A stretch of DNA of 64,000 bases from Desulfovibrio sp. (lineage in GTDB: Bacteria > Desulfobacterota > Desulfovibrionia > Desulfovibrionales > Desulfovibrionaceae), in the NCBI GenBank assembly GCA_031272405.1, contig JAISTW010000050.1, forward strand, positions 40,623-104,622, given 5' to 3'. Position numbers and translations under genes: made by a program. Of this stretch, positions 45,093-62,697 are shown in pieces; position 1 is the first letter of the stretch, and every line of letters begins with the position of its first letter. The notes under the pieces are model-generated. The model did not search any database. It was given only the letters and a program-made list of their open reading frames with translations, and was not told the DNA's origin.

Positions 45093-46550
45093 TTACCGGT
45101 GTGTCCCGCCGTTTTCTTCTCCGGCAGCTTCTTCCTTTCTGCGTCCGTCCTGGGGAATATCGGAACACTCCTGGATTTTACGGAAAATGGTGCTGCGGTT
45201 GATCTGAAAAAGGTCGGCCACTTTTCGAATTGAACCGTATTCTTCTATAGCTCTGAGCAAAAAATCGCGTTCGAGTTCGGCCATAATCTGTTTCAGGGGA
45301 CGGCGCGCTGTTGGAAGGGGCAAGGAAATGGCGCCTTTTTCCTGAGAACCGCCCGAGATGTAAGAGGGCAAATCGCGGGGGGCGATAAGCGGCCCTTTGT
45401 GTGTGATGACAAGACTGTGGACAAGGTTTTGTAACTCCCGAACGTTGCCCGGCCAGGAGTAACGGGTGAGCATTTCCAGAACGACGTCCATGAAGGTCGC
45501 GACTTTTCTGTATTTCGCAGTGTACATCTGTAAAAATTGCCGCGCAAGGGGCCGGATGTCTTCCGGCCGTTCCCGCAAGGGGGGGATACGCAGTATGGCG
45601 ACATTGAGGCGATAATACAGATCCCGGCGGAATGTGCCTTTGTCCACGCATTGCGACAAATCTCTGTTGGTGGCCGCAATGATGCGCACGTCAATGTTGC
45701 GGGGAGAGGAAGAGCCGACCCGTACAATTTCACCATCCTGCAATACCCGCAACAGTCGGGACTGCATGGCGAGGGGGAGTTCCCCGATTTCATCAAGAAA
45801 CACTGTTCCGCCATCGGCAATTTCAAAATATCCCGCCTTGCCCTTGCTGGAAGCGCCGGTGAACGCCCCGGGCATGTAACCGAACATCTCCGACTCCGTC
45901 AATGTTTCGGAAATACCTCCGCAGTCCACCTTGAGCAGCATTTTGTCGTGCCTGTGACTGTAACTGTGCACAAGCCGGCCAAAGACATCCTTGCCCACTC
46001 CTGTCTCTCCAAGGATCAGGACAGTGGCGTCTGTTTCCGCGACACGGCGCAGCGTGGCCATGAGAGAGGTCATGAGGGGGCTTTCAAAGACGGGTTCCGG
46101 GGTTTTGGCCTGCTCCTGAGCGATGAAGGCCAGCTGTCCGTTCATTTGTTCGATCAAACGGCGCTGTTCGGTCATCTGTTCGCTCATCTGCATAAGCAGG
46201 GTGGTATCCCGGGCAAAGGTCACCACGAGAACAAGTTTGCCGGATTCGTTGAAAACGGGGAAACCGGACAGCACCAACTGCTTTCCGTTGCGCAATGTCT
46301 GCACATGGGTGGCCGGTTTGCCCGTAGCCACGATTTCCGGATTGAGGACGTAGTCAAAAACTCCCTCCTCAACCAGCGCGCGCACATTTTTCCCTTTGAG
46401 GCTTTCCTGGGTCAGGCCCGTGAGGTGCTCGTACATCCTGTTCACCCGCACAGTAGTCCCCTGCGGGTCGGAAATGAACAGACCATCGGGCAGAGAGTCG
46501 AGGATGCACTCAAAATGTTTGGACAGGTATTCCGTCGGCAGACTTCTCAT
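45093..46550 (-). CDS. PAS-containing sigma-54-dependent transcriptional activator
   Basis: 485-aa bacterial enhancer-binding protein. A PAS domain (about residues 12-120, ILDSLPDGLFISDPQG) is followed by a short coiled coil and the AAA+ domain, with Walker A GETGVGKD (181-188), GAFTGA (228-233) for sigma-54 contact and GTVFLDEIGELPL. The C-terminal Fis-type helix-turn-helix is IRKVADLFQINRSTIFRKIQ. It is encoded 26 bases after islB and is the obvious regulator of the two sigma-54 promoters found upstream. What the PAS domain senses is unknown. Confidence 0.94.
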   Translation of the reverse strand: MRSLPTEYLSKHFECILDSLPDGLFISDPQGTTVRVNRMYEHLTGLTQESLKGKNVRALVEEGVFDYVLNPEIVATGKPATHVQTLRNGKQLVLSGFPVFNESGKLVLVVTFARDTTLLMQMSEQMTEQRRLIEQMNGQLAFIAQEQAKTPEPVFESPLMTSLMATLRRVAETDATVLILGETGVGKDVFGRLVHSYSHRHDKMLLKVDCGGISETLTESEMFGYMPGAFTGASSKGKAGYFEIADGGTVFLDEIGELPLAMQSRLLRVLQDGEIVRVGSSSPRNIDVRIIAATNRDLSQCVDKGTFRRDLYYRLNVAILRIPPLRERPEDIRPLARQFLQMYTAKYRKVATFMDVVLEMLTRYSWPGNVRELQNLVHSLVITHKGPLIAPRDLPSYISGGSQEKGAISLPLPTARRPLKQIMAELERDFLLRAIEEYGSIRKVADLFQINRSTIFRKIQECSDIPQDGRRKEEAAGEENGGTHR

Positions 46551-46576: not shown

Positions 46577-47518
46577 TCAGGGACTGCGAAAGCGCTCCTT
46601 GAGAATGTCGCGCGCAGTTGATTCTACACGAGACATTATGGTCTTGTCCAGCGTCACGTCCCCCATGGAGCAGGAACGATCCAAAAACACATACTTTTGG
46701 GTTCCGAGCCTGTGGTAGGGGAGCAATTCGTAGCGTACCTGTTCATAAGGTTTCAGGAAGGCGGCAATGGCGGCAATGGCTTCTTCGTTGTCGTTAAAGC
46801 CCGGAATAACAGGGGTGCGGGCCAGCAACCTCAGATCGGGGAATTCTTCCGCCAGAATACGGAAATTTTCAAGAATGCGGGCATTGGGCGCTCCGGTGTT
46901 GGCTTCGTGCACAGCGCTGTCCATATGCTTTAAATCAAACAGGATGTCGTCAAGCAATACCCTTGCCTGACGCAGCGTTTCCGGCTGCGCCATGCCCGAT
47001 GTTTCCATGGCGGTCTTGAGACGGCGTCGTTTCGCTTCCTGGAGCAAGGCAAGGGTAAAATCTCCCTGATAGAGAGGTTCGCCGCCGGACAGCGTCATAC
47101 CGCCGCCGGAGCGGTTATAGAAAGCCGCATCCTGCTCCACCGTCCGTAACACATCGTCCACGGACATATTTTTTCCGTAAGCGACAAGCGCCTGGGCAGG
47201 ACAGGCGTCCACACAGGGTCTGTGGCAGCCCTGGCAACGCGTTCGCTCAATGTCCAGAGTCGCGTCCTGCCGACGGGTAAGCGCGTTGCGCACGCAGACT
47301 GCGGGGCAACGGACACATTTGTCCAGTCCCAGACACCTGCCCTTGTTATAGGCCAGTTCTGTCTGGTTGCTCTGAGATTCCGGATTGCTGCACCAACGGC
47401 AGGAAAGAGGGCAACCCTTGAGAAAAACGATAGTTCTGATGCCCGGTCCGTCATGGACCGAATACTTTTGGATGTTGAACACCAACCCTGTATGCCTACG
47501 ATCGGCGGCGGAAGACAT
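46577..47518 (-). CDS. islB: glycyl-radical enzyme activase (IslB-type)
   Basis: 313-aa radical-SAM protein that installs the glycyl radical on IslA. The CxxxCxxC cluster motif is in KGCPLSCRWCSNPES, after the start VHDGPGIRTIVFLKG. Two more ferredoxin-like clusters lie in an insert (CLGLDKCVRCPAVC and CQGCHRPCVDAC), as in activases of the larger eliminase-type enzymes. TLSGGEPLYQ is the SAM-binding GGE. AAGGGA precedes the ATG at 47518. It lies 63 bases after islA, separated by a stem-loop. Confidence 0.92.
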   Translation of the reverse strand: MSSAADRRHTGLVFNIQKYSVHDGPGIRTIVFLKGCPLSCRWCSNPESQSNQTELAYNKGRCLGLDKCVRCPAVCVRNALTRRQDATLDIERTRCQGCHRPCVDACPAQALVAYGKNMSVDDVLRTVEQDAAFYNRSGGGMTLSGGEPLYQGDFTLALLQEAKRRRLKTAMETSGMAQPETLRQARVLLDDILFDLKHMDSAVHEANTGAPNARILENFRILAEEFPDLRLLARTPVIPGFNDNEEAIAAIAAFLKPYEQVRYELLPYHRLGTQKYVFLDRSCSMGDVTLDKTIMSRVESTARDILKERFRSP

Positions 47519-47581: not shown

Positions 47582-50077
47582 CTAGAGCGCTCCGTGTTCC
47601 GTTCTGGCTATGAGATCGTTTTGCAGATCGGGGGACAGGTCCACAAAGTAAGCGCTGTAACCGGCAATCCGTACAATAAGATTGCGGTATTTCTGCGGAT
47701 CTTTCTGCGCAGCCAGCAGGGTGTCCTTACGGATGACGTTGAATTGCACATGCCACAATTTCAGGTCGCAGAACGTTCTGATAAAGGCGACAAGTTTTTC
47801 GGTTCCCTGCTCGCCTTCAAGACATTTGGGAGTAAACTTGATGTTGAGCATCCGGGCCGCCCTGTCGCGCATCCCCATGTTCTTTGTGCTGTAGTTGGAG
47901 AGCATGACCGCCGTCGGTCCATTGACATCCGCCCCGTGCGAAGCGGACGAGCCGTCGGACAGGGGAAACCATTCCGTACGGCCGTTGGGGGTGGCCGAGA
48001 CGACTTTGCCGAAGGGAACATGAGAGGTGAAGGGCACATAGCGCACATCGTTGTGTATGCCCAAATCCTTCATGCTGTAATTCTTTCCGTATTCGACGGA
48101 TATTTTGTCTATGGCCCTGCCGATTTCATCGGCATAGGGATCGTTGTTTCCGTAGCAGGGCGCTGTGCGCAGCAGGGCCTTGATGTCCTCGTAGCCTTCA
48201 AAATTGGCGTCAATGGCTCGGAGAAGCTCATCCATGGTCAATTTCTTTTCTTCAAAGACAAGTTTTTTCACCGCCGCCAGAGAATCCACCACTGTGCCCA
48301 ACCCCATGTATTCAAAGTAGCCGAAGTTGATCCCTTCGGGAATTTGCGGCTGGTGCAGATCAATGCAGTGCTTCATGCACAGATCGTGCATGGCCGAACC
48401 CATAGGCTGCGCGAAATGTCTCGCCCGCAGATTGATGATAATATGCTGCTGGATAAAGGCGGCTTTCATAAAGAGCATGTGCTGTTGCACATAGGCGTCC
48501 CAAAATTCCTTCCAGGTCTTAAAAAAACGGGGGTTGCCGGTTTCAACGCCCAAAAGCTGATCCCCGTACTTTTTCATCCTGCCGTTGCGCAACACCATTT
48601 CCACCGCCGCCGCGAAATTGATGTAGGCGCCGCCGGAGGTATAGGTGTCCCGATTGGGCATCCTGGCCTCGGTGCATCCCGAAACGGCGTAGTCGAGCGC
48701 CTCCTCAAAGGTCGCGCCCTTGGATACATACAGGGGAACCACTTCCTCGTCGTTGATAAGCTTTGGAAATCCGGAGCCGAACTTGATGGTTTCCGCCACG
48801 TCCCACAAATAACGCTCAGGCGCGCGGGAATGGATGCGGGCGGCCAAATCGGGATAATGCAGAGGGAATTCCCTTTTCGACTTGAGAATAAGATAGGTCA
48901 GATCATTGGTCGCGTCCCTCCCGTCCGGGGTCTGCCCGCCGACGGTAACGGCCTCCCAATGGGCATAACCCTCGTTGAAAGCGCCTCCTGTGGGAGAGAT
49001 GTACATGTCGATAAATTCCGCCATGCCCACCCACATGCATTCCAGAAGTTCAATGGCCGTCTCCTCGGTAAGGGAACCGTCTTCGATCCCCTTTTGGTAG
49101 TAGGGATAAAAGTACTGGTCCATTCTTCCATTGGAGATGGTCGTGCCGGTCTTTTGCTCCAGCCGGGAAAACATCTGGGTGAACCATTGGCTCTGGCAGG
49201 CATCGTAGAAATCTCTGGCCGGCTCTCCGGGCACGCGATCCGCAATTTCGGCCATGCGCGACAATTCCGCCTTGCGCTGCGGATTGAATTCAATGGCGGC
49301 CATTTCCCGCGCCAGGGAGGCGTGACGCTTCGCCCACAAAACGATGGCGTCGCACACAATGACGACAGCTTCCAGGAAGGGCCTTTTCTCGCAGTAATCT
49401 TTGGCGCTCAAGGGATCAAGCGCGTCAAGCTTTTCCTGTGCTTCTTTCTTGATGTCGTTGAATCCTCTTTTAAGAATTTTTTCGTAATCATGCACCCACT
49501 GTATGGATGATCTGAAAGAAGACGTTTCGTTGACGATAAACCGGGAAATCAATCCCAGCGGATCATCATAGGTCAACTTGTGAATTTCCGGCGGCAACGC
49601 GGCATTGAGGGCTTCGTGGTAGGTTTTTCCCTTCCAGTAGGGAGCTATTTCCTCAATAACCCTTTTGGCGTCTTCCGGAGTGATGGTGGCGGGAGATGTG
49701 GCCCTTGTGGGCAAATCACGGACGGCGATGTCCAGAAAATCCCCATCAAGCTCAGGATACAGTATGCCGTAGCGGCCGTCGCAGCCTGCGCGCCCCAGCA
49801 GCAACTGGTCCTCCTGCACATACACGGTGATGTTTCGCGCTATGTGCATGAGGGCCTTGGCCCAGCGCAAAACAAGGGGCTGTCCCTCCGTCTCGCGCAT
49901 GGATTGCGTAAAATAAAGGGCGCGTTCAATGTCTATGCGCGGCTTTTGTCCTTCAAAGCGCTCCAGCAGGCTGAAGACGCGGGAATGCGTTTTCCTGTAC
50001 CTGTCTTCTTTTCCCTCGATCTGATCGTGAACGCGTTGTTCCTGGGGGGACAGGCAATCACATATGACTGTGGACAT
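47582..50077 (-). CDS. islA: isethionate sulfite-lyase (glycyl-radical enzyme)
   Basis: 831-aa glycyl-radical enzyme predicted to split isethionate into acetaldehyde and sulfite. Start 50077 (MSTVICDC) follows AAAGGAGTTTGCGCC; the frame extends 9 codons further without a better site. With this numbering R189 and Q193 (SSFRSSIQW), W374, C468 and E470 ([14 protein letters not shown]) fall at the positions I recall for characterised IslA. R679 and F683 are one off the recalled R678 and F682. The radical Gly is G806 ([10 protein letters not shown]). Choline lyase (GCVEP) and glycerol or propanediol dehydratases differ at the 468-470 loop. No encapsulation peptide is obvious. Confidence 0.9.
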
Positions 50078-50123
50078 GGCGCAAACTCCTTTTCTTAATT
50101 CCAAACAGCTAACGGGACAAAAC

Positions 50124-50190
50124 CCGAGATTGGCGAAATGCCGAATGGCAACCTGAAGAGCATACTTCGTGCCATCTTCGCCAATCCCGG
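50124..50190. repeat. inverted repeat flanking the islA sigma-54 promoter
   Basis: CCGAGATTGGCGAA (50124-50137) and TTCGCCAATCCCGG (50177-50190) are complementary in 13 of 14 positions and are separated by 39 bases. The islA -24/-12 element lies inside the loop. On the plus strand the right arm is followed by TTTTTT. It could be an operator pair or a hairpin. Confidence 0.65.
50159..50174 (-). promoter_or_regulatory. sigma-54 (-24/-12) promoter of islA
   Basis: Minus strand TGGCACGAAGTATGCT: the invariant GG and GC are exactly 10 bases apart, and all but one consensus base (A for T before TGC) match. It lies about 82 bases upstream of the islA start. Confidence 0.8.
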
Positions 50191-50248
50191 TTTTTTACGC
50201 TGAAATGCGCTTGTCTCGTCACTTCTGCCAAAACAGGACGCCGTCTAG

Positions 50249-50264
50249 GTCGCAAATATGCAAC
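50249..50264. promoter_or_regulatory. candidate activator site 1 (dyad)
   Basis: GTCGCA-AATA-TGCAAC, an imperfect 16-bp dyad, 75 bases upstream of the islA -24 box. The same sequence apart from the spacer occurs at 50424. The spacing suits an enhancer site for the sigma-54 activator encoded in the islA operon. Confidence 0.65.
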
Positions 50265-50423
50265 TATCAGGAACCATTCTTAAGATGTCCTGTTGTCATT
50301 TTGCATCATCCCATCGAAATGGCGAAACCCGAAACGACGTACGCAACGCAAAAAGCGTCTCCGTCAGGTTGTTTCAAATTTCACAATCACCGACATTCCG
50401 GAAAGTGCCGTCAAGGGGAGAAA

Positions 50424-50439
50424 GTCGCAATTTTGCAAC
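50424..50439. promoter_or_regulatory. candidate activator site 2 (dyad)
   Basis: GTCGCA-ATTT-TGCAAC, with both 6-base arms identical to those of site 1. It lies 95 bases upstream of the -24 box of the importer operon promoter. Confidence 0.65.
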
Positions 50440-50533
50440 ATATCATGAGGGAAAAACTGCCCGCCGAGAAAAATAAATACAATAAATACAATAGAATAAG
50501 TATTTCTTCCCCAGTAAATCCCACACTGAAATA

Positions 50534-50549
50534 TGGCACATCGTTTGCT
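50534..50549 (+). promoter_or_regulatory. sigma-54 (-24/-12) promoter of the importer/microcompartment operon
   Basis: TGGCACATCGTTTGCT matches the sigma-54 consensus at every defined position, with GG and GC 10 bases apart. It lies 222 bases upstream of the binding-protein start and points toward it. Confidence 0.88.
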
Positions 50550-50770
50550 AAGCACTCCCCGACTGCCGGCAATTGAACGGACTGCGTCGCGCGCAGATGT
50601 GACTCCACAGCAACCCGCTTTATACGTTTCGCAGATAAGCTTTGTTGAAATAAACAGTTCCAGGGAGAAACGGAAGAGCAATATCCTAATAAGGCGCTTA
50701 TGAATGTCGTCCACGAAACCTGTTCGGGGACGCGAAGCAGTATACACCATTATTCCTGTCGGAGGAGCGT

Positions 50771-51883
50771 ATGAAAAATTGCTTTCGTCTGTTGTGCGCG
50801 ATGCTCGCAACGCTGTTGAGCGTTGCCGGCGCGCAAGCCGCCCAGAAATTCACCATCGGCTTTCAACCTTATGACACCATCTCGTATCAGGTCATCGTCA
50901 ACGCGGAACTCGGACTGTGGAAAAAGTACATGCCCAAAGACGTTGAACTGGAATTTTCACCGGCCCTGCAAGGGACGATCGTGGCCAATAACATGCTGGC
51001 AGGCAAGGCCGTGGCCGGCTACATGAGCGTCATGCCCGCGACTATCCTCTGCTCCAAGGAAAAACAGGCGCGCATAAAAATGGTCGCCTCCCTCGGCATG
51101 TCGGAAGGGACGCGTTGTGCGCTGGTGCTGGTGCGCAAGGACGCTCCGAATTTCAAGAGCAACGAGGAAGTCGCCCGCTGGCTTGACGGCAAAGTCATCG
51201 CCGCCCCCAAGGGAAGCGCGTCGGATCAGTATCTGCGCCGTTTCTTCGAGCGCTACAAGGTGAAACCCGGCGAATACCTGAACCAGTCCATTGAAGTCAT
51301 CGCGACCAACTTCCGCACAGGAAAACTGGACGCCGCATCCGCGTGGGAACCCACCGCATCCCGAGTCGCCAGCGACGTGGGCGAAGGCATAGCCCGCATT
51401 GTCGCTGATGGAAGCGCGTGCGACAACCCGGATCTTGGTATCCTCGTCATGCGTGAAGACTTCATCAAGGACCATCCTGAAGCCGCCAAGGGATATCTGC
51501 GCTCCGAACTTGAAGCGCAGCGCTATCTCGTTGATCCTGCCAATCAGGAAAAGGTTGTGCAAATGGTGGCTAAATACGCCACCGGCATACCCAACAAAAT
51601 ACTCTGGTACTCCATTTACGGAAAAGTGCCCGCCACTCGTGCCAACCCGATTCGTGAGTGGAAGTCCTTCTATTTCAACAAGAAGGAACTGGACAACATC
51701 AAGGAAGTCGCTCCATTTCTGTATCAGGAGAAGGTCATTTCCATTCCCAAGCTTAGCGAATGGGCAGTGGACGACTCGCTTGCGCGGGCCGTGTTCAAGG
51801 AAGCCGGTTATAAGCCTGTTGATGACGAAGCCACGCTGGGCTACATCAAAGGGCTTCCGGCATCTGATTGTCCCTTCAAGTAG
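50771..51883 (+). CDS. sulfonate-type ABC transporter substrate-binding protein
   Basis: 370-aa periplasmic protein of the TauA/SsuA/NMT1 family. The signal peptide (MKNCFRLLCAMLATLLSVAG, cut near AQA-AQ) is followed by KFTIGFQPYDTISYQVIVNA and the two-lobe fold with LVLVRKDAPNFKSNEEVARW and GKVIAAPKGSASDQYL. A strong GGAGGA site precedes the ATG. It is the only binding protein in an operon with two permeases and two ATPases. The ligand is probably isethionate, taurine or another small sulfonate, by context; sequence alone cannot say. Confidence 0.9.
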   Translation: MKNCFRLLCAMLATLLSVAGAQAAQKFTIGFQPYDTISYQVIVNAELGLWKKYMPKDVELEFSPALQGTIVANNMLAGKAVAGYMSVMPATILCSKEKQARIKMVASLGMSEGTRCALVLVRKDAPNFKSNEEVARWLDGKVIAAPKGSASDQYLRRFFERYKVKPGEYLNQSIEVIATNFRTGKLDAASAWEPTASRVASDVGEGIARIVADGSACDNPDLGILVMREDFIKDHPEAAKGYLRSELEAQRYLVDPANQEKVVQMVAKYATGIPNKILWYSIYGKVPATRANPIREWKSFYFNKKELDNIKEVAPFLYQEKVISIPKLSEWAVDDSLARAVFKEAGYKPVDDEATLGYIKGLPASDCPFK

Positions 51884-51991
51884 CGGCTGACCCTGCTTTT
51901 TCGATTCCAGGCCGGCCACGCGGATCGCGCGGGGCCGGCCCGGAGCGAAACTGTCGCCGGGAGAACCTTTATCCAGCAAGGAGAGTTTCCC

Positions 51992-52903
51992 TTGACCACA
52001 GATACAGTCGCCAACGGCGCCAAGGGCGTCAGTGTAGGTTTGCCGGGTGCCCCGCAAGCGCCGCAAAAGCAAACCTCGGATTTCAGGCTGACCTTGATCC
52101 GCCTTAAATTCTGGCTGAAAAGTCCCTCTCCCTACCTGAATATCCTGGGACTCGCCGGTTTTCTTCTGTTCTGGTACCTCACAACGGAAGTCCTGAAACT
52201 TCCCCTGTTCGAAAAACTCCCGGGGCCCACCGCCACGCTGGACGAATGGCTGTCCCATGACCCAATGTTCGGGATTTCCTTCTTTACGCTGGAATATTAT
52301 CAGCACATCGGCATCAGCATCTGGCGCGTTTTCCAGGCCTTCGCCCTGGCAACCATGCTGGGCGTGCCCATCGGGCTGTTTATGGGGTGGAAGAAGACTT
52401 TCAAGGATTATACATTCCCCCTCCTGGAAGTGTTGCGTCCCATTCCCATGCTGGCCTGGGTTCCCCTGTCCATTCTCATGTGGCCGGGCCGCGAGGCCTC
52501 CATCGTTTTTCTCACTTTCCTGGGTTCCTTTTTCGCCACAGTCCTCAACACGCTGCTCGGCGTCGAATCCATCGACGAATGCTATTTCAGGGCGGCGGCT
52601 TCGCTCGGAGCATCGGAGAAGCAGATATTCTCCAAGGTCATAGTTCCCGGCGCCCTTCCCTTTATTTTCACCGGCCTTCAGATCAGCATGGGATACGCGT
52701 GGTTTTCGCTGGTGGCCGGTGAAATGCTGGCCGGCGAATTCGGCCTGGGCTATCTTATATGGAATTCCTACACATTGGTTCAGTATCCGGTCATCATCAT
52801 CGCCATGATCACTCTGGGCGTTATCGGTTCCCTGAGCAGTCTCATTATACGCCTTGTAGGCGACAAACTCATGCAATGGAAGGTCAGGGAGGCGGCGCAA
52901 TGA
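51992..52903 (+). CDS. ABC transporter permease 1 (TauC/SsuC-like)
   Basis: 303-aa inner-membrane protein with about six helices. TTG at 51992 is used as start because AAGGAGAGTTTCCC precedes it. The binding-protein-dependent permease signature (EAA loop) is in AAASLGASEKQIFSKVIVPG, the contact site for the ATPase. Its stop overlaps the next ATG (ATGA), so translation with ATPase 1 is coupled. Confidence 0.92.
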   Translation: MTTDTVANGAKGVSVGLPGAPQAPQKQTSDFRLTLIRLKFWLKSPSPYLNILGLAGFLLFWYLTTEVLKLPLFEKLPGPTATLDEWLSHDPMFGISFFTLEYYQHIGISIWRVFQAFALATMLGVPIGLFMGWKKTFKDYTFPLLEVLRPIPMLAWVPLSILMWPGREASIVFLTFLGSFFATVLNTLLGVESIDECYFRAAASLGASEKQIFSKVIVPGALPFIFTGLQISMGYAWFSLVAGEMLAGEFGLGYLIWNSYTLVQYPVIIIAMITLGVIGSLSSLIIRLVGDKLMQWKVREAAQ

Positions 52904-53751
52904 ATACGGCGGGATTTGAAACAGCGGACGAAAAAAGCCGCGGAGCCATCAACATCCGCAACGTTACAAAGGTATACGATCCTGACGGGGCTTGCGTCCT
53001 GGCTGTGGACAATTGCTCCATGGACATCTCCGCTGGCGAATTTTGCGTTGTCGTCGGACCTTCGGGTTGCGGCAAGACGACGCTGCTCAACGCCATCGCG
53101 GGATTTCACGGAATCAGCGGCGGCGAGATATACCTTGACGGGGAGCTGCTCTGCACCTCTGAACGCATGCCGAAACCCGGTTCGGACAGAATCGTTGTCT
53201 TCCAGAACGGGGCGCTCTTCCCCTGGTTTACTGTTCTTGAAAACGTGACCTTCGGCCCGGTCATGCAGGGCGTCATGGCAAAAAAAGACGCCGAAGACAA
53301 AGCCCTGCATATGATGGGGCAAATGGGACTTCAGGGTATATCCATGAACTATCCCAGCGAAATATCTTCCGGCATGCGGCGCCGCGTGGAAATCGCCCGC
53401 GCTCTGATGAACAACCCCAGAGTCCTCCTGCTGGATGAACCCTTCCGCGCAATGGACGCGTTGACCAAGACAGTGGTGCATCAATTCCTGCTCAACGTCT
53501 ATGACGAGTACAAGACCACGATTTTTTTCATCACCCATGATCTGGACGAAGCCATATTTCTCGGCAGCAAGGTCTACATCATGACAACCCGTCCGGCCAC
53601 AATCAAAAAAATACTCGAAGTCACCATACCGAGACCACGGGATTTTCGCATTCTGGCCTCTCCGGAATACCAGCGTCTGCGGGACGAGTGCATTTCCGCC
53701 GTGCATGAGGAAGCCGTCAAGGCCTTCAAGGCCGGCGAGCGAGAAATGTAA
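52900..53751 (+). CDS. ABC transporter ATPase 1 (degenerate signature motif)
   Basis: 283-aa TauB/SsuB-like nucleotide-binding protein. Walker A GPSGCGKTT (53-61), Q-loop Q102, Walker B with catalytic E180 (LLLDEPF) and H-loop H213 (FITHDLDEAIF) are intact. The signature motif, normally LSGGQ, reads ISSGM (155-159). It therefore can supply a working ATP-binding face but a poor signature face. It complements ATPase 2 of the same operon, which has the opposite defect. Confidence 0.92.
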   Translation: MNTAGFETADEKSRGAINIRNVTKVYDPDGACVLAVDNCSMDISAGEFCVVVGPSGCGKTTLLNAIAGFHGISGGEIYLDGELLCTSERMPKPGSDRIVVFQNGALFPWFTVLENVTFGPVMQGVMAKKDAEDKALHMMGQMGLQGISMNYPSEISSGMRRRVEIARALMNNPRVLLLDEPFRAMDALTKTVVHQFLLNVYDEYKTTIFFITHDLDEAIFLGSKVYIMTTRPATIKKILEVTIPRPRDFRILASPEYQRLRDECISAVHEEAVKAFKAGEREM

Positions 53752-53774
53752 CATCAACGTGGGAGGTCTGAAAC

Positions 53775-54614
53775 ATGCATGACAACGCGACGTCACCCTC
53801 ACATGGCGAAGGGCTTGCCCCCGTCGAGAACGATTTCATCAGGATTCTGAAAAAAAGGGCATCATCCGTCGCTTTCTGGCGCGGAATAGCATCCATAGTG
53901 GCGTTCACGCTTTTCTGGGAATTTTGCGCGCGCTTCCACGTCCCCGTCATAGGCAACGTGCCGGCGCCGTCCGAGGTGCTTGCCTCGCTCGCCGTGCAGA
54001 TCAAGCTTGCCTACTATTGGCTCTCCTGGGCCGACAGTATGATCCGCATCTTCACCGGCTTCATCATCGCGCAAATCATCGGCGTCCCGCTGGGATTATT
54101 TCTCGGCGCCAACAACAAGGCGCGGGAAACATTGTTTCCCATTTTTGAGATCATGCGCCCCGTGCCGCCCCTCGCTTGGGTGCCCGTCTCCGTCATTTTC
54201 TGGCCTTCCGCTGAAATGAGCATGATATTCGTCACCTTTCTCGGAGCGTTTTTCACCGTGGTGCTGAATATTGTGGAAGGCATCACAAGTATCGACATAC
54301 GCTATATCCGGGCGGCGTATTCCCTGGGCTCCACAAAACGCGACATCTTTTGGCGCGTGTTGCTGCCCGCGAGCTTGCCCAGCGTGGTCGTCGGCATGAC
54401 TGTCGGCATGGGCATCACATGGGCCGTGGTGGTAGCCGCGGAAATGATCGCCACCAATACGGGCCTCGGTTTCCTGACTTGGCGTGGCTATGTGGCTGGA
54501 GAATATCCGATTATCGTCGTCGGCATGATGAGCATCGGTTTGGCCGGGTACCTGTCGTCAGCGTTGATTCGCTACGTGGGAGCGAAGTTCACCCCCTGGC
54601 TGAAAACCAGATAA
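53775..54614 (+). CDS. ABC transporter permease 2 (TauC/SsuC-like)
   Basis: 279-aa inner-membrane permease paralogous to permease 1. EAA-type loop IRAAYSLGSTKRDIFWRVLL and about six hydrophobic segments are visible. GGGAGG lies 8 bases before the ATG. No second binding protein goes with it, which suggests that it pairs with permease 1 in a heteromeric channel. Confidence 0.92.
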   Translation: MHDNATSPSHGEGLAPVENDFIRILKKRASSVAFWRGIASIVAFTLFWEFCARFHVPVIGNVPAPSEVLASLAVQIKLAYYWLSWADSMIRIFTGFIIAQIIGVPLGLFLGANNKARETLFPIFEIMRPVPPLAWVPVSVIFWPSAEMSMIFVTFLGAFFTVVLNIVEGITSIDIRYIRAAYSLGSTKRDIFWRVLLPASLPSVVVGMTVGMGITWAVVVAAEMIATNTGLGFLTWRGYVAGEYPIIVVGMMSIGLAGYLSSALIRYVGAKFTPWLKTR

Positions 54615-54662
54615 TCCGTTTCGGCACCCCAACCCGCCGTCAGGACACAAGGGAAGCAGCAT

Positions 54663-55553
54663 ATGATCAACAACATGTCAAATACCGGCATGCAGGCCGG
54701 CGAAATGGTCGTAGACAACCTCGTCAAGACATATGGAACGGACATTCTGACCAAGGTAGTGTTGGATGATTGCTCGTTTGTCCTGGAGCGGAGTAAATTG
54801 ACGGTGCTTGTCGGCCCGTCCGGCTGCGGCAAGAGCACCATCATCAATGTGCTCGCGGGCTATGAAAAACCGACTTCAGGAAGGGTGCTTCTTGACGGGG
54901 AGCAGATCAGCGGTCCCGGCCCCGACCGGCTGGTGGTTTTTCAGGAAACAGCCCTTTTTCCCTGGATGACCACATTTGAAAATGTCGCATACGGCCCCGA
55001 GGTCCGGAAAGAAATGAAGGGCAAAGAACTCAGGGATGCGGTCATGCATCTGCTGGAATTGGTTGGCCTGGAAGATTTCCGGGACAAGTATCCCACGCAG
55101 CTTTCCGGGGGCATGCAACGGCGGACCGAATTGGTTCGCGCCATGATCAATCACCCGAAGGTCATGTTCATGGATGAACCCTTCCGTGGACTGGACGCCA
55201 TGACCCGTTCCCTGATGCAGGAATACTATGTTAGACTTTTTGAGGAACACCGCGGAACAAATCTTTTCATCACGTCCGAGCTGGAGGAAGGCATTTTCCT
55301 TGCCGACAGGTTGGTCATCCTCACAAACCAACCCTGCCGGGTCAAAAAAATTATGAATGTCGATTTGCCGCGACCGCGCGATTTCAGCGTTATGGGCTCC
55401 TCGGAGTATCTGAATATAAAGCGGGAAGCGCTGGAACTTCTCCATGAGGAAGCAATGAAATCCTTCGCTTCAGGGGCTGTGAACGCCGCCGACTTTCTTG
55501 AGGCGTATTCCCACATGGGCGAAGACCAGGCAAAACCGCGTTCCCACGTTTAG
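54663..55553 (+). CDS. ABC transporter ATPase 2 (H-loop His replaced)
   Basis: 296-aa nucleotide-binding protein. Walker A GPSGCGKST (51-59), Q94, a good signature LSGGM (147-151) and Walker B E172 (MFMDEPF) are present. The H-loop histidine is replaced by Ser205 (NLFITSELEEGIFL). Together with ATPase 1 it would form one canonical and one degenerate ATP site. The C-terminal tail of about 40 residues is longer than usual for TauB. Confidence 0.92.
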   Translation: MINNMSNTGMQAGEMVVDNLVKTYGTDILTKVVLDDCSFVLERSKLTVLVGPSGCGKSTIINVLAGYEKPTSGRVLLDGEQISGPGPDRLVVFQETALFPWMTTFENVAYGPEVRKEMKGKELRDAVMHLLELVGLEDFRDKYPTQLSGGMQRRTELVRAMINHPKVMFMDEPFRGLDAMTRSLMQEYYVRLFEEHRGTNLFITSELEEGIFLADRLVILTNQPCRVKKIMNVDLPRPRDFSVMGSSEYLNIKREALELLHEEAMKSFASGAVNAADFLEAYSHMGEDQAKPRSHV

Positions 55554-55576: not shown

Positions 55577-56512
55577 ATGAAAATCATAGACTTTCGTTTT
55601 CGCCCCAATACGCGTGAAGTCATTGACGGCATCAAGAACAGCTCCATGTTCAAGGCAACGTGCGAAGCCATCAACTTCGACAGGCGGGTGCCACAGCTTT
55701 TGCCGGAAATAGTGGCCGATATGGAAAAACGCGGCGTGGAGCTTGCCGTGATCACGGGCAGGGATTGTGAAGTCACATACGGCTTTCCAGCCAATAACGG
55801 AAGTGTTCTGGAATTTGTCAGAGCCTATCCAAAAAAATTCATTGGCTTCTGGGGGATAGACCCGCACAAGGGGATGAAGGCTGTTTACGAAATTGTACAC
55901 GCCGTGGAAAGTGACGGTATGCGCGGCATCGCCGTGGACCCTTATCTGGCCCATATTCCGCCGCACGAGGCCCGTTATTATCCCCTGTATTCCAAATGTT
56001 GCGAATTGAAAATTCCCGTCTTCATCACGACAGCGCCTCCTCCCCAGGTGCCCCGGGCTGTTATGGACTATGTTGATCCGCGCCATGTGGACATCGTTGC
56101 CCGCGACTTCCCGGAGTTGACCATCATCATGAGCCACGGGGGCTATCCTTTCGTGAATGAAGCTATTTTCGCCTGTATGCGCAACGCCAATGTGTATATG
56201 GACCTTTCGGAATATGAACTGGCGCCCATGGCCGATGTTTACGTGCAGGCGCTCAACAGCGCCATCGGGGACAAGGTCGTTTTCGCCAGCGCCCATCCTT
56301 TTGTGGAGCAGGAAGAGGCCATACGTATTTACAACAACCTCAAGCTGAAAGACGATGTTCGCCGCAAGGTCATGTACGACAACGCTCGGCGCATCCTCGG
56401 CCTCGCCGGCGAAACGCGCTCCGAGGGACGGGAGGGTGGAAGGCCGATTCTCTCCCCTGAACTCCCACTGCCCTATCTGCCCTTTATACCAACGTCGGGA
56501 CGCATGAACTGA
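55577..56512 (+). CDS. amidohydrolase_2-like protein lacking canonical metal ligands
   Basis: 311-aa TIM-barrel protein of the ACMSD/amidohydrolase_2 family. The usual DxHxH start reads DFRFR (residues 5-9), and the late catalytic Asp (FGSD-type) is Ala239 in VVFASAHPF. His187 in IIMSHGGYPF is kept. A normal metal-dependent hydrolase or decarboxylase is therefore doubtful; it could use other residues, be a lyase-like variant, or bind a substrate. It lies 23 bases after ATPase 2 and 6 before the RnfC-like gene, so it belongs to the sulfonate operon. Confidence 0.82.
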   Translation: MKIIDFRFRPNTREVIDGIKNSSMFKATCEAINFDRRVPQLLPEIVADMEKRGVELAVITGRDCEVTYGFPANNGSVLEFVRAYPKKFIGFWGIDPHKGMKAVYEIVHAVESDGMRGIAVDPYLAHIPPHEARYYPLYSKCCELKIPVFITTAPPPQVPRAVMDYVDPRHVDIVARDFPELTIIMSHGGYPFVNEAIFACMRNANVYMDLSEYELAPMADVYVQALNSAIGDKVVFASAHPFVEQEEAIRIYNNLKLKDDVRRKVMYDNARRILGLAGETRSEGREGGRPILSPELPLPYLPFIPTSGRMN

Positions 56513-56518
56513 CACCGT

Positions 56519-57868
56519 ATGAACAGGGACGAATTCATAGAAATGATACGGGCCGCAGGCGTTGTAGGCGAAGGGGGCGCCGGTTTCCCGGCGCACGTCA
56601 AGTATGCCGGGACGGCGGATACGGTCATCGCCAACGGATGTGAATGTGAACCTCTCCTGCACACGGACAGAAGCCACATGGAGCGGAATGCGCGAGATAT
56701 AGCCCAAGCCCTTGCGGAACTGCGGCGCGCGGTTGGGGCCGGCAAGGGCATTTTTGCCCTGAAGAAAAAACAGATCGGCGTCATCGACAAGGTACGCGAG
56801 GCTTGCAGGGAATTTGATCTGGAAATGGCCCTGCTTGACGATTTTTACCCCGCCGGGGATGAGCAAATACTCGTGCGCGAATTGACCGGACGTTCTGTGC
56901 CTGCCCTGGGCATCCCCCTTCAGGTGGGCTGCATAGTGGCCAACGTCGGAACGCTTGTCTCAGTAAACGCGGCATTGGGGGGCAAGCCCGTGACTCACAA
57001 GACGCTCACGGTTACCGGGGATGTGCGCAAGCCGGGGATGGTGCGCGCCCCCGTTGGGACTTCGATGGATGAATGCCTTGCCGCAGCCGGGGGAACGCTG
57101 ACGAAAGACCCTGTTTTCATTTTGGGAGGCCCCATGATGGGACGTCTTGTGGAAGACGAAGCCGCCCTGAAAAAAGAATATGTCGCTAAGGTTGACGGCG
57201 GTCTCATCGCGTTGCCGCGTGGACATTATCTGCACCACAACGCGACGCAGAAGGTGGAAAAAATGCGCCGCAGAGCCGCTGCCGCCTGTATTCAGTGCCG
57301 TTTTTGTTCGGATTTGTGTCCGCGTATGCTGATAGGACAGCCTTTTGAAACGCACAGGGTAATGCGGGTGTTCGGAGCAGACGCGGAAATGGAAAGCGAA
57401 AGCGGTACATTGGCGCACTTGTGCAGCGGGTGCGGCGTGTGCGAACACTATGCCTGCCCCATGCGTCTTTCGCCCCGTCGCGTCAATCAGGCCGTAAAAA
57501 AGGCGCTGGCCGACAAAAAAATATCCTATGAAGGCTCGCGTGAGATCAACGAACGCAGGACACAACCGCGGGAATATCGCAAAATTCCCTTGGCCCGTCT
57601 GGCGGCCCGACTTGATATCACGCGGTATATGCGCCTGGAAACGCCGGACCTCGGCACACTGACCCCCTCGGTGACGCGCGTGCCCTTGGGACGGCATATC
57701 GGCGCTCCAGCCAAACCGGTGGTGAATGTTGGACAAAAAGTGCGTTGCGGCGAGTGCATAGGGGAAATTCCAAAAAAATCCCTTGGCGCGCGGGTGCATG
57801 CGGGCATGGATGGCGTGGTTGTCTCTGTGGACGACGCGGTGACCATACGGGGTGAGAAATATGCCTGA
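56519..57868 (+). CDS. RnfC/PduS-like microcompartment electron-transfer protein
   Basis: 449-aa flavoprotein/iron-sulfur protein of the PduS-RnfC family. The N-terminal GVVGEGGAGFPAHVKY is the nucleotide/flavin-binding start, and the middle has the SLBB-like TVTGDVRKPGMVRAPVGTSM. Two 4Fe-4S motifs follow (Cys 257, 260, 263, 267 and Cys 302, 305, 308, 313). The C-terminal part has a biotinyl-like fold (GQKVRCGECIGEIPKKSLGA). In other microcompartments such proteins pass electrons between NADH and carriers across the shell. No cobalamin enzyme is near, so NAD recycling for the aldehyde dehydrogenase is the likely job. Confidence 0.9.
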   Translation: MNRDEFIEMIRAAGVVGEGGAGFPAHVKYAGTADTVIANGCECEPLLHTDRSHMERNARDIAQALAELRRAVGAGKGIFALKKKQIGVIDKVREACREFDLEMALLDDFYPAGDEQILVRELTGRSVPALGIPLQVGCIVANVGTLVSVNAALGGKPVTHKTLTVTGDVRKPGMVRAPVGTSMDECLAAAGGTLTKDPVFILGGPMMGRLVEDEAALKKEYVAKVDGGLIALPRGHYLHHNATQKVEKMRRRAAAACIQCRFCSDLCPRMLIGQPFETHRVMRVFGADAEMESESGTLAHLCSGCGVCEHYACPMRLSPRRVNQAVKKALADKKISYEGSREINERRTQPREYRKIPLARLAARLDITRYMRLETPDLGTLTPSVTRVPLGRHIGAPAKPVVNVGQKVRCGECIGEIPKKSLGARVHAGMDGVVVSVDDAVTIRGEKYA

Positions 57869-58418
57869 ACATTTCGCGGCTGTGGGGATGCTGGAGTTTT
57901 CCAGCATTGCCGAAGGAATGGAAGCGGCTGACCGAATGGTCAAGGCCGCCGAGGTCTTTCCCGTCTTTTTCAAAACAGTCTGTCCCGGTAAATATCTGGC
58001 CTGCGTCACTGGCGATGTCGCCGCCGTTTCCGCCTCGCTCGAAGCGGGCCGGGCATCGGTTTCCCCCCTTGTGGCAGACTGGTTTCTTCTGCCCAATATC
58101 CATCCCGATGTTATTTCCGCGCTTTCCGGCATGGCGCGGACAGCGGAACGCGCGGCTTTGGGAATACTTGAAACTTACTCCGCAGCTTCAATCGTCGCCG
58201 CTTCGGACGCCGCCGTCAAGGCTGCGGAGGTATGCGTGCTTGACGTGCGCATCGCCTTGGGGATCGGCGGCAAGGGCTATGCCCTGTTCGGCGGCGACGT
58301 GGCGGCCGTGCAGGCTGCTGTTGAAGCTGGTTCGCGGCAGCCTCGGGAAGCGGGGCTGCTGGTGGCCAAAGTCGTCATTCCCCGACCGGCGCAAGCCTTT
58401 TATGAACAGGTGCTTTGA
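57861..58418 (+). CDS. BMC-T shell protein (PduT-like, with pore cysteine)
   Basis: 185-aa protein of two BMC domains (about residues 7-90 and 97-182), forming a trimeric shell tile. Start 57861 has GGTGAG upstream and overlaps the RnfC-like gene by 8 bases. Cys41 in FKTVCPGKYL lies where PduT (KTICPGKF) holds its central 4Fe-4S cluster, so an Fe-S cluster in the pore is likely. That would link electron flow from the RnfC-like protein through the shell. Confidence 0.92.
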   Translation: MPEHFAAVGMLEFSSIAEGMEAADRMVKAAEVFPVFFKTVCPGKYLACVTGDVAAVSASLEAGRASVSPLVADWFLLPNIHPDVISALSGMARTAERAALGILETYSAASIVAASDAAVKAAEVCVLDVRIALGIGGKGYALFGGDVAAVQAAVEAGSRQPREAGLLVAKVVIPRPAQAFYEQVL

Positions 58419-59536
58419 TGGCGGCTCAATCTGCAATCACCGCGGATGACGTGCGCGCGGCCCGCAAGGAAGGACGAAAGGAAATTTTTGTGCCCTCAGG
58501 AACGCTTCTGACGCCTCTGGCCAGAGACGAAGCCGGAGAATACGGAATACGTTTTGTCTTTGCCGAGGGCGCTCCGGGGGGAGAGCCCGGTGGGCGAAGA
58601 CCGGCCCGCGTTCCGGCATTACGGAATGACGGAGCCGTTTTTACAGAGGCGGCGTCAGCGATTGTGCCGGGCCAGATTATTCTGCGCGCGGGGCAACCGT
58701 TGGCGCAAGCCTTCACGCCGGCATCGTCCGCAGTCCTGTCCGACAAGACAGGCGACGCGCGAGCAGGAGAAAATACCGCAGGCCATGCAAGCTGCGAACT
58801 GGGAGTATGTATGATCTTTTTGACGGAAGACGACATTCGGCAACGCGCCATACCCGAGGGAGGAGAGCTTGTTCTTTCCGCTGCGGAGAAATTGACGCCT
58901 TCAGCCATGGAACATATCCGGGAGCGGCGTCTCCGGGTGGTCGCAAGCGGTGATGCCCGGCAGTGTTGCAAGGAATCCCCCCCAAGCGTCATCGGCGACG
59001 GGCGCGCGGAATCCGGTCTGACCCATCTTGACGCCGCGACTATGGTGGCGAAAACGCATCCGCGCATTGAGGCGCGAGGCAAGCTGGACAATCTCATGGC
59101 AGAGATTGTGTTGACTCAGACCCTTTTCGACCCCAAGAGCAAACTTCCCCCTCTTCTCAAAGACTGTCTGTCTGAACTCAAAAACTGGGTGTTTCAAACT
59201 CTGGCGGCGGAGATATCCGGCAGCATATTGCCCGAGCAGAGCATGGCCGGCATGAACCCGGATGCCTTGCGGGCCGTCTCTCGCAATCCGCGTCGCTATT
59301 TAGCTCTGGATCATTTGACGCCCGACGCGACGCTGGGCATGAACATGGCGTTTTTAAACCGTTTGCGGACACAGGTGCGCGAGACGGAACTGACTGTGGC
59401 CAAAGCAGCCCTCTGTCGCAGCGATATCGGGGAATCCCTGAACAGGCTCTCCAGCGCCGTGTACGTGCTTATGCTGTTCACGCGGCTGGCCGAAAGCGGC
59501 GGGAAATTGCCGGAAACAGGCATTAAAATCGGTTGA
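58418..59536 (+). CDS. EutT-like (cobalamin adenosyltransferase family) microcompartment protein
   Basis: 372-aa protein. The C-terminal half matches EutT (THLDAATMVAKTHPRIEARG, ILPEQSMAGMNPDALRAVSR, FLNRLRTQVRETELTVAKAA). The short motif 'DDIRQRAIPEGGELVLSAAE...' that starts EutT occurs twice, near residue 10 and near residue 132, the first ending GTLLTPLARDEAG. The EutT metal motif (His, then CC-x2-C) is incomplete: only CC in RQCCKES. There is no B12 enzyme in the island. It may be a repurposed assembly or cargo protein. Its ATG overlaps the BMC-T stop (TGATG). Confidence 0.82.
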   Translation: MAAQSAITADDVRAARKEGRKEIFVPSGTLLTPLARDEAGEYGIRFVFAEGAPGGEPGGRRPARVPALRNDGAVFTEAASAIVPGQIILRAGQPLAQAFTPASSAVLSDKTGDARAGENTAGHASCELGVCMIFLTEDDIRQRAIPEGGELVLSAAEKLTPSAMEHIRERRLRVVASGDARQCCKESPPSVIGDGRAESGLTHLDAATMVAKTHPRIEARGKLDNLMAEIVLTQTLFDPKSKLPPLLKDCLSELKNWVFQTLAAEISGSILPEQSMAGMNPDALRAVSRNPRRYLALDHLTPDATLGMNMAFLNRLRTQVRETELTVAKAALCRSDIGESLNRLSSAVYVLMLFTRLAESGGKLPETGIKIG

Positions 59537-59551
59537 GATCAGGGCGCGACA

Positions 59552-60598
59552 ATGTTGATCACGGAACGCAGCGCGGCGTTATGCAGGGAGAAAAAGCCGG
59601 TCGTCGTCTTTCCCGACGGGGAGGATGAGCGCGTAGTGCGCGCCGCCCTCAGATTGCGGCGCGAGGGGCTTGCCCGCCCGCTTGTTCTTGGCCGCCCGCG
59701 CGTTCTGCTGGAAATTCTGAACAGGGAAGCCGGACAGGGGGAGTGTCTGGATGTGGCGGACACGTCGTCGCCTCAACTTCTGACGCTCAACGCCAAGGAT
59801 TACATGGCCGTCATGGCGGCGCGCGGCAAAAATGTCGACCCGGCCAAGGCGGAAGATGCAGCGCGTTGCCCCTTGGTCGCGGCTTGTCTGACTGTGAAAC
59901 GGGGAGACGCCGTAGTCGGCATAGCCGGAAATACTTCCTCCACGCCGGATGTAATGCGGGCCGGGCTGCGTATTCTGGGAACGAGCCCGGGCGTGCGCAC
60001 AGTTTCGGGATTCTTTTTTATGCTTTCGCCGGACGGGAAGAACTGTTTTATTTTCGCCGACGTCGGGGTGATCCCGGAACCTACGGTGGAACAGCTTGCC
60101 GACATCAGCATCGCCTCGGCTGAACAATACAGACGAATGACGCGGGAAGAACCGCGTGTCGCGCTGCTGTCTTTCTCCACCAAGGGGAGCGCCAGACACC
60201 ACAGGGCCGAGCACGTGCGCGAAGCATTCAATCTTGTCCGCAAACGGGAGCCGCATCTGCTTGTGGACGGCGAAATACAGTTTGACGCCGCCATTGACCC
60301 GACGGTGGCCCGTAGGAAATCGCCTGACAGCCCGTTGGCCGGGCAAGCCAATGTTTTTGTTTTTCCTTCGTTGGAAGCGGGGAATATCGCCTACAAGGTT
60401 GCTCAGCGCCTGGGGGGATATACGGCTCTTGGCCCGTTTCTTCAGGGAATGAACGGCGGATGGCATGATCTATCCAGAGGCTGCAATGCGGATGATGTCT
60501 ATAAGGTGGCCCTTATAGGGTTGGCTATGGAACTTGAAAAGCGGAGTGGACTTGCGGCCGCATGTCCCGGGGACGGATCGTCGTCCGATAAACGGTAA
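59552..60598 (+). CDS. phosphate acetyltransferase (PTA_PTB family)
   Basis: 348-aa enzyme predicted to turn acetyl-CoA into acetyl phosphate and recycle CoA inside the compartment. The Pta core is clear: VVFPDGEDERVVRAALRLRR, GIAGNTSSTPDVMRAGLRIL, EIQFDAAIDPTVARRKSPDS and VFVFPSLEAGNIAYKVAQRL. It is of the classic Pta/EutD type rather than PduL. Acetate kinase is not in the window. The N-terminal MLITERSAALCREKK might serve as a cargo helix. Confidence 0.93.
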   Translation: MLITERSAALCREKKPVVVFPDGEDERVVRAALRLRREGLARPLVLGRPRVLLEILNREAGQGECLDVADTSSPQLLTLNAKDYMAVMAARGKNVDPAKAEDAARCPLVAACLTVKRGDAVVGIAGNTSSTPDVMRAGLRILGTSPGVRTVSGFFFMLSPDGKNCFIFADVGVIPEPTVEQLADISIASAEQYRRMTREEPRVALLSFSTKGSARHHRAEHVREAFNLVRKREPHLLVDGEIQFDAAIDPTVARRKSPDSPLAGQANVFVFPSLEAGNIAYKVAQRLGGYTALGPFLQGMNGGWHDLSRGCNADDVYKVALIGLAMELEKRSGLAAACPGDGSSSDKR

Positions 60599-60618
60599 CC
60601 GAATAAGGAGATGAAACT

Positions 60619-60906
60619 ATGGATGCGCTCGGCATGATTGAAACCAAAGGTCTTGTGGCTTTGATCGAGGCGGCGGATGCGATGGTGAAAGCGGCGAGAG
60701 TCAGCCTTATCGCCTATGAACAGATAGGCGGCGGCTTTGTGACGGCTATCGTCAGGGGAGACGTCGCTGCATGCAAAGCCGCGACGGACGCCGGCGTGAG
60801 CGCCGTGCAACGCATGGGCGGAGAGCTCGTTTCTGTGCATGTCATCCCGCGCCCGCATAATGACCTGGAGGGAGTCTTCCCGCTTCAGCGCAAGGAATCC
60901 AATTGA
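60619..60906 (+). CDS. BMC-H hexameric shell protein
   Basis: 95-aa single BMC domain: [20 protein letters not shown], pore segment [16 protein letters not shown] and [15 protein letters not shown]. It makes the hexagonal facets of the shell. It is the only BMC-H gene in the island. AAGGAGATGAAACT precedes the ATG. Confidence 0.96.
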
Positions 60907-60938
60907 TGTCAAACAAGACAACAGCATGGTGAAAATGT

Positions 60939-61226
60939 ATGGAACTTGCCAAGGTTGCAGGGCAGGTGGTGGCCACCGCGCGGGCGCCAGGCCTGCCCAA
61001 TAATTCGCTTCTGCTCGTCCAGTTCATCAACGAAGCGGGCAAAGTTGTCGGCGACAGCCAGGTCGCGGCAGACCCGGTCGGGGCAGGCGAAGGCGAATGG
61101 GTGCTCGTCGTGCGGGGAAGTTCCGCCCGGTGCGCCATTGACAAGGACGTGCCGGTGGATCTGGCCATAGTGGCTATAGTGGACAGCGTCTCCTCCGGTG
61201 CTGCCAATCTGTACCGCAAACATTGA
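60939..61226 (+). CDS. BMC-P (EutN/CcmL) pentameric vertex protein
   Basis: 95-aa protein of the EutN/CcmL family that closes shell corners: MELAKVAGQVVATARAPGL, DPVGAGEGEWVLVVRGSSAR and VDLAIVAIVDSV. The ribosome site is weak. It lies 32 bases after BMC-H. Confidence 0.95.
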   Translation: MELAKVAGQVVATARAPGLPNNSLLLVQFINEAGKVVGDSQVAADPVGAGEGEWVLVVRGSSARCAIDKDVPVDLAIVAIVDSVSSGAANLYRKH

Positions 61227-61281
61227 AGGCAATCTTTATGACGTCCGGTTTTTTTACCGTACTCTCGTCGGAGCATCGCAT

Positions 61282-62697
61282 ATGAATTTGCGCGAACATG
61301 ATGTGGAACAGATTGTGGTTGAGGTGCTGAAGCGCCTCGGAGTCGCCAACGCCGCCGCGCGTGACGTCGGCGGAGATTTCGGCCTGTTCGAAACCCTTGA
61401 CGACGCCGTCTCCGCCGCCTCCGAGGCTTATCGAAAAATTCCCACCATTGCCCTTCGCAACAGGGTGATCGCCGCTATACGTAAGGCCGGAGCGGAGCAC
61501 GCCCATACCCTGGCGGAACTGGCGGTTCAGGAAACAGGCATGGGGCGCGTTTCCGACAAGACGGCCAAAAACATCCTGCAGGCGGAACATACTCCCGGCA
61601 CTGAAATTCTCACGCCGCGCGCCGTTTCCGGCGATGCCGGACTGGCCCTCGAAGAGAACGCGCCCTGGGGAATCATCGCTTCGGTAACTCCTTCCACAAA
61701 TCCGGCGGCAACAGTCATCAACAACAGCATCAGCATGATAGCCGCCGGCAATGCCGTGGTCTTCGCGCCGCACCCCGGCGCCAAAAAAACCTCGCAAACG
61801 GCGATTCGACTGCTGAACAAAGCGATCCACGAAGCGACGGGAATCGCCAATCTCCTCTGCGCTGTGCGTGAGCCATCCATTGAAATTGCCCAGCGGCTTT
61901 TTGCCCACAAGGACGTCAAACTTCTGGTGGTGACTGGAGGCGAGGCGGTGGTTGAAGCGGCCCGCAACCATGCGACCATGCGGCTTATCGCAGCGGGGGC
62001 CGGCAACCCTCCCGTTGTGGTGGACGAAAGCGCGGACATACGGCGCGCGGCGCGCAGCATCTATGCGGGCGCATCCTTCGACAACAATATCATTTGCGCT
62101 GATGAAAAGGAAATCATTGCCGTTGACGGCGTTGCCGACCAGTTGAAAAACGAAATGAAAAGCCTCGGGACGGTGGAGATATCTCCGGAGCAGGCCGACA
62201 CGATCGCCCGCTTCGCTTTGCGCGGATATCCAGGCCCCAAACCGTCCGCCAATCCGAAATGGGTTGGACGAGACGCCGCCTCCATAGCGCGGGAGGCGGG
62301 AATAACGGTGCCGGAAGACTGCCGTCTGCTTCTGGTGGACGTCGGCCGCGATGTTGCTCATGTCTTCGCGCGGGTGGAACAGATGATGCCTGTCATTCCG
62401 TTGTTGCGGGCGAAAGATGTCAACGAGGCCATTGAGTGGGCGCTGATTCTGGAACGCGGACTTTGCCATACGGCCGGCATGCATTCGCGCGATATTGACA
62501 ACCTGCATAATATGGCCTTGCGGATGAATACCAGCCTTTTCGTTAAAAACGGACCCCATATAGCCGCCTTGGGCGTTGGCGGAGAAGGATGGACTTCCAT
62601 GACCATTTCGACGCCCACGGGCGAGGGAGTGACTTCGGCGCGCAGCTTTGTTCGCATCAGAAGATGCGTTCTGGTGGACAATTTCCGTATTGTCTGA
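61282..62697 (+). CDS. CoA-acylating acetaldehyde dehydrogenase (EutE/PduP-like)
   Basis: 471-aa enzyme oxidising acetaldehyde with NAD and CoA to acetyl-CoA. Start 61282 is chosen because it opens with an amphipathic helix (MNLREHDVEQIVVEVLKRLG) like known encapsulation peptides, followed by a short linker; the longer frame from 61198 adds unrelated residues. The catalytic Cys is C272 in FDNNIICADEKEI, with APWGIIASVTPSTNPAATVI in the cofactor region. It converts the acetaldehyde made by IslA, explaining the shell. Confidence 0.94.
   Translation: MNLREHDVEQIVVEVLKRLGVANAAARDVGGDFGLFETLDDAVSAASEAYRKIPTIALRNRVIAAIRKAGAEHAHTLAELAVQETGMGRVSDKTAKNILQAEHTPGTEILTPRAVSGDAGLALEENAPWGIIASVTPSTNPAATVINNSISMIAAGNAVVFAPHPGAKKTSQTAIRLLNKAIHEATGIANLLCAVREPSIEIAQRLFAHKDVKLLVVTGGEAVVEAARNHATMRLIAAGAGNPPVVVDESADIRRAARSIYAGASFDNNIICADEKEIIAVDGVADQLKNEMKSLGTVEISPEQADTIARFALRGYPGPKPSANPKWVGRDAASIAREAGITVPEDCRLLLVDVGRDVAHVFARVEQMMPVIPLLRAKDVNEAIEWALILERGLCHTAGMHSRDIDNLHNMALRMNTSLFVKNGPHIAALGVGGEGWTSMTISTPTGEGVTSARSFVRIRRCVLVDNFRIV

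Follow-up and report, generated by a model that had tools for sequence, protein, structure and literature searches.

The locus analysed here raises the question whether a single regulator switches on both operons that diverge from the intergenic region 50078-50770, one headed by islA and the other encoding an importer. Coordinates refer to the window, which is the whole stretch of 64,000 nucleotides taken from a 2.21 Mb draft genome (80 contigs) of a Desulfovibrio sp. From the DNA letters, the initial annotation had proposed two back-to-back σ54 promoters, each of them provided with its own copy of the same dyad. We consider the region, with a probability of roughly 0.83, to be a divergent σ54 control region at which one activator would serve both operons. 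The features concerned are listed in Table 1.

Table 1. Predicted features of the divergent control region and the operons on either side of it.
Feature	Position	Strand	Basis or remark
Predicted σ54 activator, third gene of the islA operon	45093..46550	-	PF00158, PAS folds, HTH_50
islB, radical SAM activating enzyme	46577..47518	-	TIGR02494, NF048010
islA, isethionate sulfite-lyase (glycyl radical enzyme)	47582..50077	-	likely ATG at 50077
Predicted σ54 promoter (-24/-12) of the islA operon, TGGCACGAAGTATGCT	50159..50174	-	sequence; orthologues
Dyad O1 (GTCGCAAATATGCAAC), predicted activator site for islA	50249..50264	.	23.9 bits; conserved position
Degenerate dyad O2 (GTTGTCATTTTGCATC)	50292..50307	.	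9.7 bits; one half-site intact; 43 bp from O1
Element TTTCACAA between O2 and O3	50369..50386	.	conserved in relatives
Dyad O3 (GTCGCAATTTTGCAAC), predicted activator site for the importer operon	50424..50439	.	23.9 bits; conserved position
Predicted σ54 promoter (-24/-12) of the importer operon, TGGCACATCGTTTGCT	50534..50549	+	sequence; orthologues
ABC importer: substrate-binding protein, permease, ATPase, permease, ATPase	50771..55553	+
Amidohydrolase, family recurring in the divergent operon	55577..56512	+	PF04909; orthologues in many relatives
Co-directional run: RnfC/PduS-like, BMC shell proteins, adenosyltransferase-like, phosphotransacetylase, aldehyde dehydrogenase, TauE/SafE-like	56519..63513	+

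Gene content of the two operons

The islA product matched the solved IslA/IseG structures 7kq3 and 5ymr with 1533 and 1492 bits, respectively, and 6lon with 1226 bits. The lyase also scored above the cut-off of the NCBIfam HpsG-type model, but this name was set aside because both IslA structures outscore 6lon, which we take to be HpsG. Judged by its sequence, the lyase is IslA, with the predicted activity of cleaving isethionate to acetaldehyde and sulfite.

The activator combines PAS domains with an AAA+ Sigma54_activat domain (PF00158, PF25601) and a Fis-type helix-turn-helix (HTH_50), and it carries the GAFTGA motif of bacterial enhancer-binding proteins at residue 228. The initial annotation was thus right about GAFTGA, but not in calling the gene adjacent, since it follows islA and islB at 3.5 kb from the promoters. 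RpoN is encoded in the same genome (PF04552, E-value of 5e-61; G000:C51). The activator gene is followed in the same direction by a gene of the 3-hydroxyisobutyrate dehydrogenase family (44134-45168), which may be co-regulated; no such gene was found at this place in the relatives.

On the other side, gene orientation and short gaps suggest that a single transcript covers all genes between 50771 and 63513. The TauE/SafE-like membrane protein at its end was assigned from the appearance of its sequence alone. The predicted leader of the importer transcript would be about 210 bases long (50549-50770) and holds a reading frame of 24 codons near 50699, the stop of which overlaps the importer start.

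Two promoters and their dyads

Both promoters and both dyads of the initial annotation were found exactly at the claimed positions. Each promoter has GG-N10-GC within a -24/-12 element resembling TGGCAC-N5-TTGCW, and the distances from the dyads to the -24 boxes are 75 for islA and 95 for the importer as claimed, corresponding to 74 and 94 intervening bases. The count of two dyads probably has to be raised to three: the degenerate O2 has a right half with flank that repeats the right half and flank of O3.

A 19-bp inverted repeat (50119-50137 and 50177-50195, 89% complementary) flanks the islA promoter. It was absent from the same place in 20 relatives and seems, from these sequences, to be specific to this Desulfovibrio sp. 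genome. The only Rfam match in the region, to narK at 50535-50590, reached 20 bits with a cut-off of 43 and was taken as a chance match.

Rarity of the promoter-dyad arrangement

The dyad GTCGCA-N4-TGCAAC occurs in two exact copies in the 2.21 Mb of the genome, both of them within 50078-50770. With a dyad matrix built from 69 sites in other genomes, none of them from the window, these two copies ranked first and second in the 64-kb window at 23.9 bits, the next best site scoring 11.7 bits. A very loose dyad pattern was uninformative, giving 143 genome matches versus 206 for a reversed control.

The combined promoter-dyad pattern (AGCA-N6-RTGCCA-N72..102-GNYGCR-N4-YGCRNC) had two matches in the window, none in 100 shuffles of the window, and two in the whole genome, in the same two places. 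By comparison, 26 matches to the -24/-12 element with at most two mismatches were present in the window versus 43.6 expected. A -24/-12 match alone is therefore unremarkable, and the evidence is the dyad together with its spacing and conservation. When the combined pattern was searched in 247 family genomes, it was present in 36 and 33 of them with the correct promoter spacer and in 4 and 1 with a spacer one base longer; the longer version does not match the window itself.

Elsewhere in the window, a minus-strand sequence that is almost the same as the islA promoter (TGGCACGAAATATGCT, 5306-5321) is located upstream of an N-acetylmuramoyl-L-alanine-amidase-like gene (3733-5241) and just beyond where a LepA-like reading frame ends on its 3' side. 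This promoter-like site has no dyad in its vicinity.

Conservation in related genomes

Forty regions around activator homologues were taken from genomes of the family, and named loci of Desulfovibrio, Desulfomicrobium and Desulfobotulus were added. islA, islB and the activator gene share an operon in about 30 of the fetched loci. In about 30 related islA loci, three dyads of the form GWYGCA-N4-TGCRWC precede islA and stand well above their surroundings in conservation. The layout upstream of islA comprises a σ54 promoter, two close dyads and a third dyad further out. Most islA orthologues have an equivalent of the islA promoter, and most of the three-dyad loci also have an equivalent of the importer-side promoter, so that their dyads lie between two divergent σ54 promoters. 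The loci in which no divergent promoter was recognisable at the threshold used were L059, L070, L072, L073, L076, L077 and L082-L084, and the islA-side dyads of genus g39 score below 9 bits with the dyad matrix. Among ten regions of the same genus, the five elements had conservation values of 0.86-0.93 versus 0.60 for the background. The dyads and both promoters are thus conserved in orthologous regions, where a lack of dyad conservation would, according to the initial annotation, have spoken against a shared switch.

The spacing of the elements is conserved as well. O3 and the divergent promoter are 115-119 bases apart, start to start, in most relatives. The O1-O2 spacing is about 54, or 42-43, or 51-53 bases across relatives (a range of 51-54 was also obtained). 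These O1-O2 spacings fit whole helical turns, with periods of 10, 10.5 and 11 performing equally well and with loci that are related rather than independent. L006, which is among the nearest relatives of the activator in the tree (82/90 support), has the same 16-mer as the islA promoter at the equivalent place and an O1-O2 spacing of 42 versus 43 in the window.

Presence of the pattern also follows that of the activator. Two hits of the promoter-dyad pattern were found in 13 of the 26 same-genus genomes with a strong activator homologue and in none of the 12 genomes without one (Fisher p = 0.003), and at least one match in 19 of 26 versus 2 of 12 (p = 0.002), where the p-values over these 38 genomes are optimistic as the genomes are related and not independent.

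Different importers behind the divergent promoter

On the divergent side, the relatives have genes for either a TRAP importer or an MFS transporter, usually accompanied by an amidohydrolase gene, whereas the window has an ABC importer. A related ABC operon is present in two other genera, g39 and g10, located apart from the islA promoter and equipped with its own dyads of the GTTGCA-N4-TGCAAC type and a σ54-like promoter. In our view, no other independent evidence speaks as strongly as these separate dyads for a common regulatory family of both operons, one in which the dyad would be read.

Another genome of the same genus holds a second IslA, 78% identical, downstream of an ABC importer that is about 79% identical to the one in the window (L094; G114:C10:268000-284000). 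The divergent activator of this locus is 51% identical, and its dyads represent a diverged version, GGTGCA-N4-CGCACC. The sequence of L094 hints that the locus in the window may be a hybrid of two isethionate clusters. Two further loci, L095 and L096, encode a lyase of 62-63% identity and, nearby, an activator of 48% identity; a σ54 promoter and repeats of the TTGCAA type are located upstream of the lyase gene. Their activator may be a paralogue whose operator has shifted.

Proposed mechanism and alternative readings

According to the mechanism that we propose, the one-component enhancer-binding protein encoded at 45093-46550 would bind the inverted repeats O1, the weakened O2, and O3. The dyad-bound activator dimers would loop to two outward-facing RpoN-RNA polymerase closed complexes and open both of them. 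One promoter would then transcribe islA, islB and the activator gene, and the other the genes for the ABC importer, the amidohydrolase, the microcompartment and acetaldehyde oxidation. The signal sensed by the PAS domain is probably isethionate or one of its metabolites. Since the activator gene is located within the islA operon, synthesis of the activator should rise on induction.

That one regulator acts on both operons through their own dyads, as the initial annotation had predicted, is supported by the conservation of dyads and promoters, by their co-occurrence with the activator and by the dyads of the separate ABC operon. What we observed are the sequences with their genome-wide uniqueness, conservation and spacing, the genes on either side, and an RpoN encoded in the genome. 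From these we infer that the activator would bind the dyads, that transcription would need RpoN, and what the inducer may be; the causal claim stays at this level because binding, RpoN dependence and transcript starts are predicted from sequence.

Three other explanations were considered. It is unlikely, though less so than the other two, that the two σ54 operons have different activators and that the dyads serve one operon only. This view would be in line with the existence of other σ54 activators of the same type in the family and with the relatives in which the divergent promoter is unrecognisable. However, a dyad lies some 75-100 bases upstream of each promoter, the distance from O3 to the divergent promoter is kept in most relatives, and the ABC operon keeps its dyads even when it is located away from the islA promoter.

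We regard it as distinctly less probable that the dyads are sites of a repressor or a global regulator rather than of a σ54 activator. Binding of the activator to the dyads is indeed a prediction from sequence, and the presence of a conserved CRP/FNR-like element in the region means that other regulators may act there. Many relatives conserve this element (50369-50386) as ATGA/TTGT...TTTCACAA. It is similar to CRP/FNR-type (HcpR-like) sites and may provide a further layer of control. The dyads, however, are located upstream of the promoters and not over them, at distances typical of enhancers, and the pattern is rare genome-wide and co-occurs with the linked activator gene. Lastly, a chance resemblance with no regulatory role, for which the abundance of -24/-12 matches in the window could be quoted, is hardly credible given the shuffling result, the two matches in the genome and the conservation in about 30 loci, which already refutes chance for the dyads. 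We thus retain one shared activator as the preferred reading.

Relation to known systems

A switch of the same kind was predicted in 2015 for a related species, so that the arrangement, while well supported, is largely known. In Desulfovibrio vulgaris Hildenborough, DVU2827 was predicted to act through σ54 promoters on the operon DVU2822-DVU2825 and on DVU2820, a neighbouring amidohydrolase gene with a σ54 promoter to itself (Kazakov et al. 2015, PMC4641369). Orthologues in five Desulfovibrionales genomes were predicted to have such sites upstream, D. desulfuricans and D. piger having MFS importers, and the regulon was labelled pyruvate metabolism and C4-dicarboxylate transport (PMC4641369). 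Compared by text, the published operator motif being a logo in a figure, the window resembles this regulon in coupling a one-component σ54 activator with the operon of a glycyl radical enzyme, the activator gene being in the islA-islB operon with a σ54-controlled amidohydrolase operon alongside. It differs in that its activator has GAFTGA where DVU2827 has GAFSGA, and in that its divergent operon encodes an ABC importer and microcompartment genes. Relatives of the activator with GAFSGA are present in genera g39 and g10; they are 53-56% identical and keep the linkage to islA.

The enzyme that was characterised afterwards as IseG/IslA (Q727N1) is DVU2824. Later work identified the lyase as an isethionate sulfo-lyase, and in D. 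piger the orthologous enzyme is prominent in isethionate-grown cells and absent from sulfate-grown ones (PMC6453916).

The gene content of the window is also similar to that of a Bilophila wadsworthia cluster comprising genes for a PAS regulator, islB, islA, an aldehyde dehydrogenase, microcompartment proteins, an RnfC/PduS-like protein and an amidohydrolase (PMC8667426). In that organism a single cluster holds the lyase and microcompartment genes side by side, whereas they are divergent in the window; the publication makes no use of the word "promoter" (PMC8667426). TRAP importers for isethionate are established, the genes of IsePQM being linked to islA (PMC11668362), and genes of an MFS importer are linked to islA in D. 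piger (PMC6453916). The importer of the window shares this linkage but is of the ABC type, with isethionate as its predicted substrate. In the literature searched, isethionate and σ54 were not found together.

Implications for isethionate metabolism

While the regulatory idea is not new, the present analysis adds the operator layout, a proposed correction of the function, and the version with an ABC importer and a microcompartment. For a regulon predicted in the literature, the functional label would thereby change from pyruvate and C4-dicarboxylates to isethionate. It is conceivable, though doubtful at present, that the region with its three dyads works as a conserved control module whose layout stays the same when one importer is exchanged for another (TRAP, MFS, or ABC with the microcompartment set). 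An activator spread across O1, O2 and O3 would then form a single enhancer assembly for the two promoters, and the regulator would need no change when a new importer is plugged in. What was found in the relatives is that the TRAP and MFS versions are located behind the same divergent control region, so that different importer classes are found behind one conserved region. Through this region, one activator very probably switches on isethionate uptake together with isethionate breakdown. The result thus provides a defined operator sequence, a layout and a candidate activator for the joint switching of uptake and cleavage, and isethionate cleavage feeds the production of hydrogen sulfide by gut and sediment bacteria.
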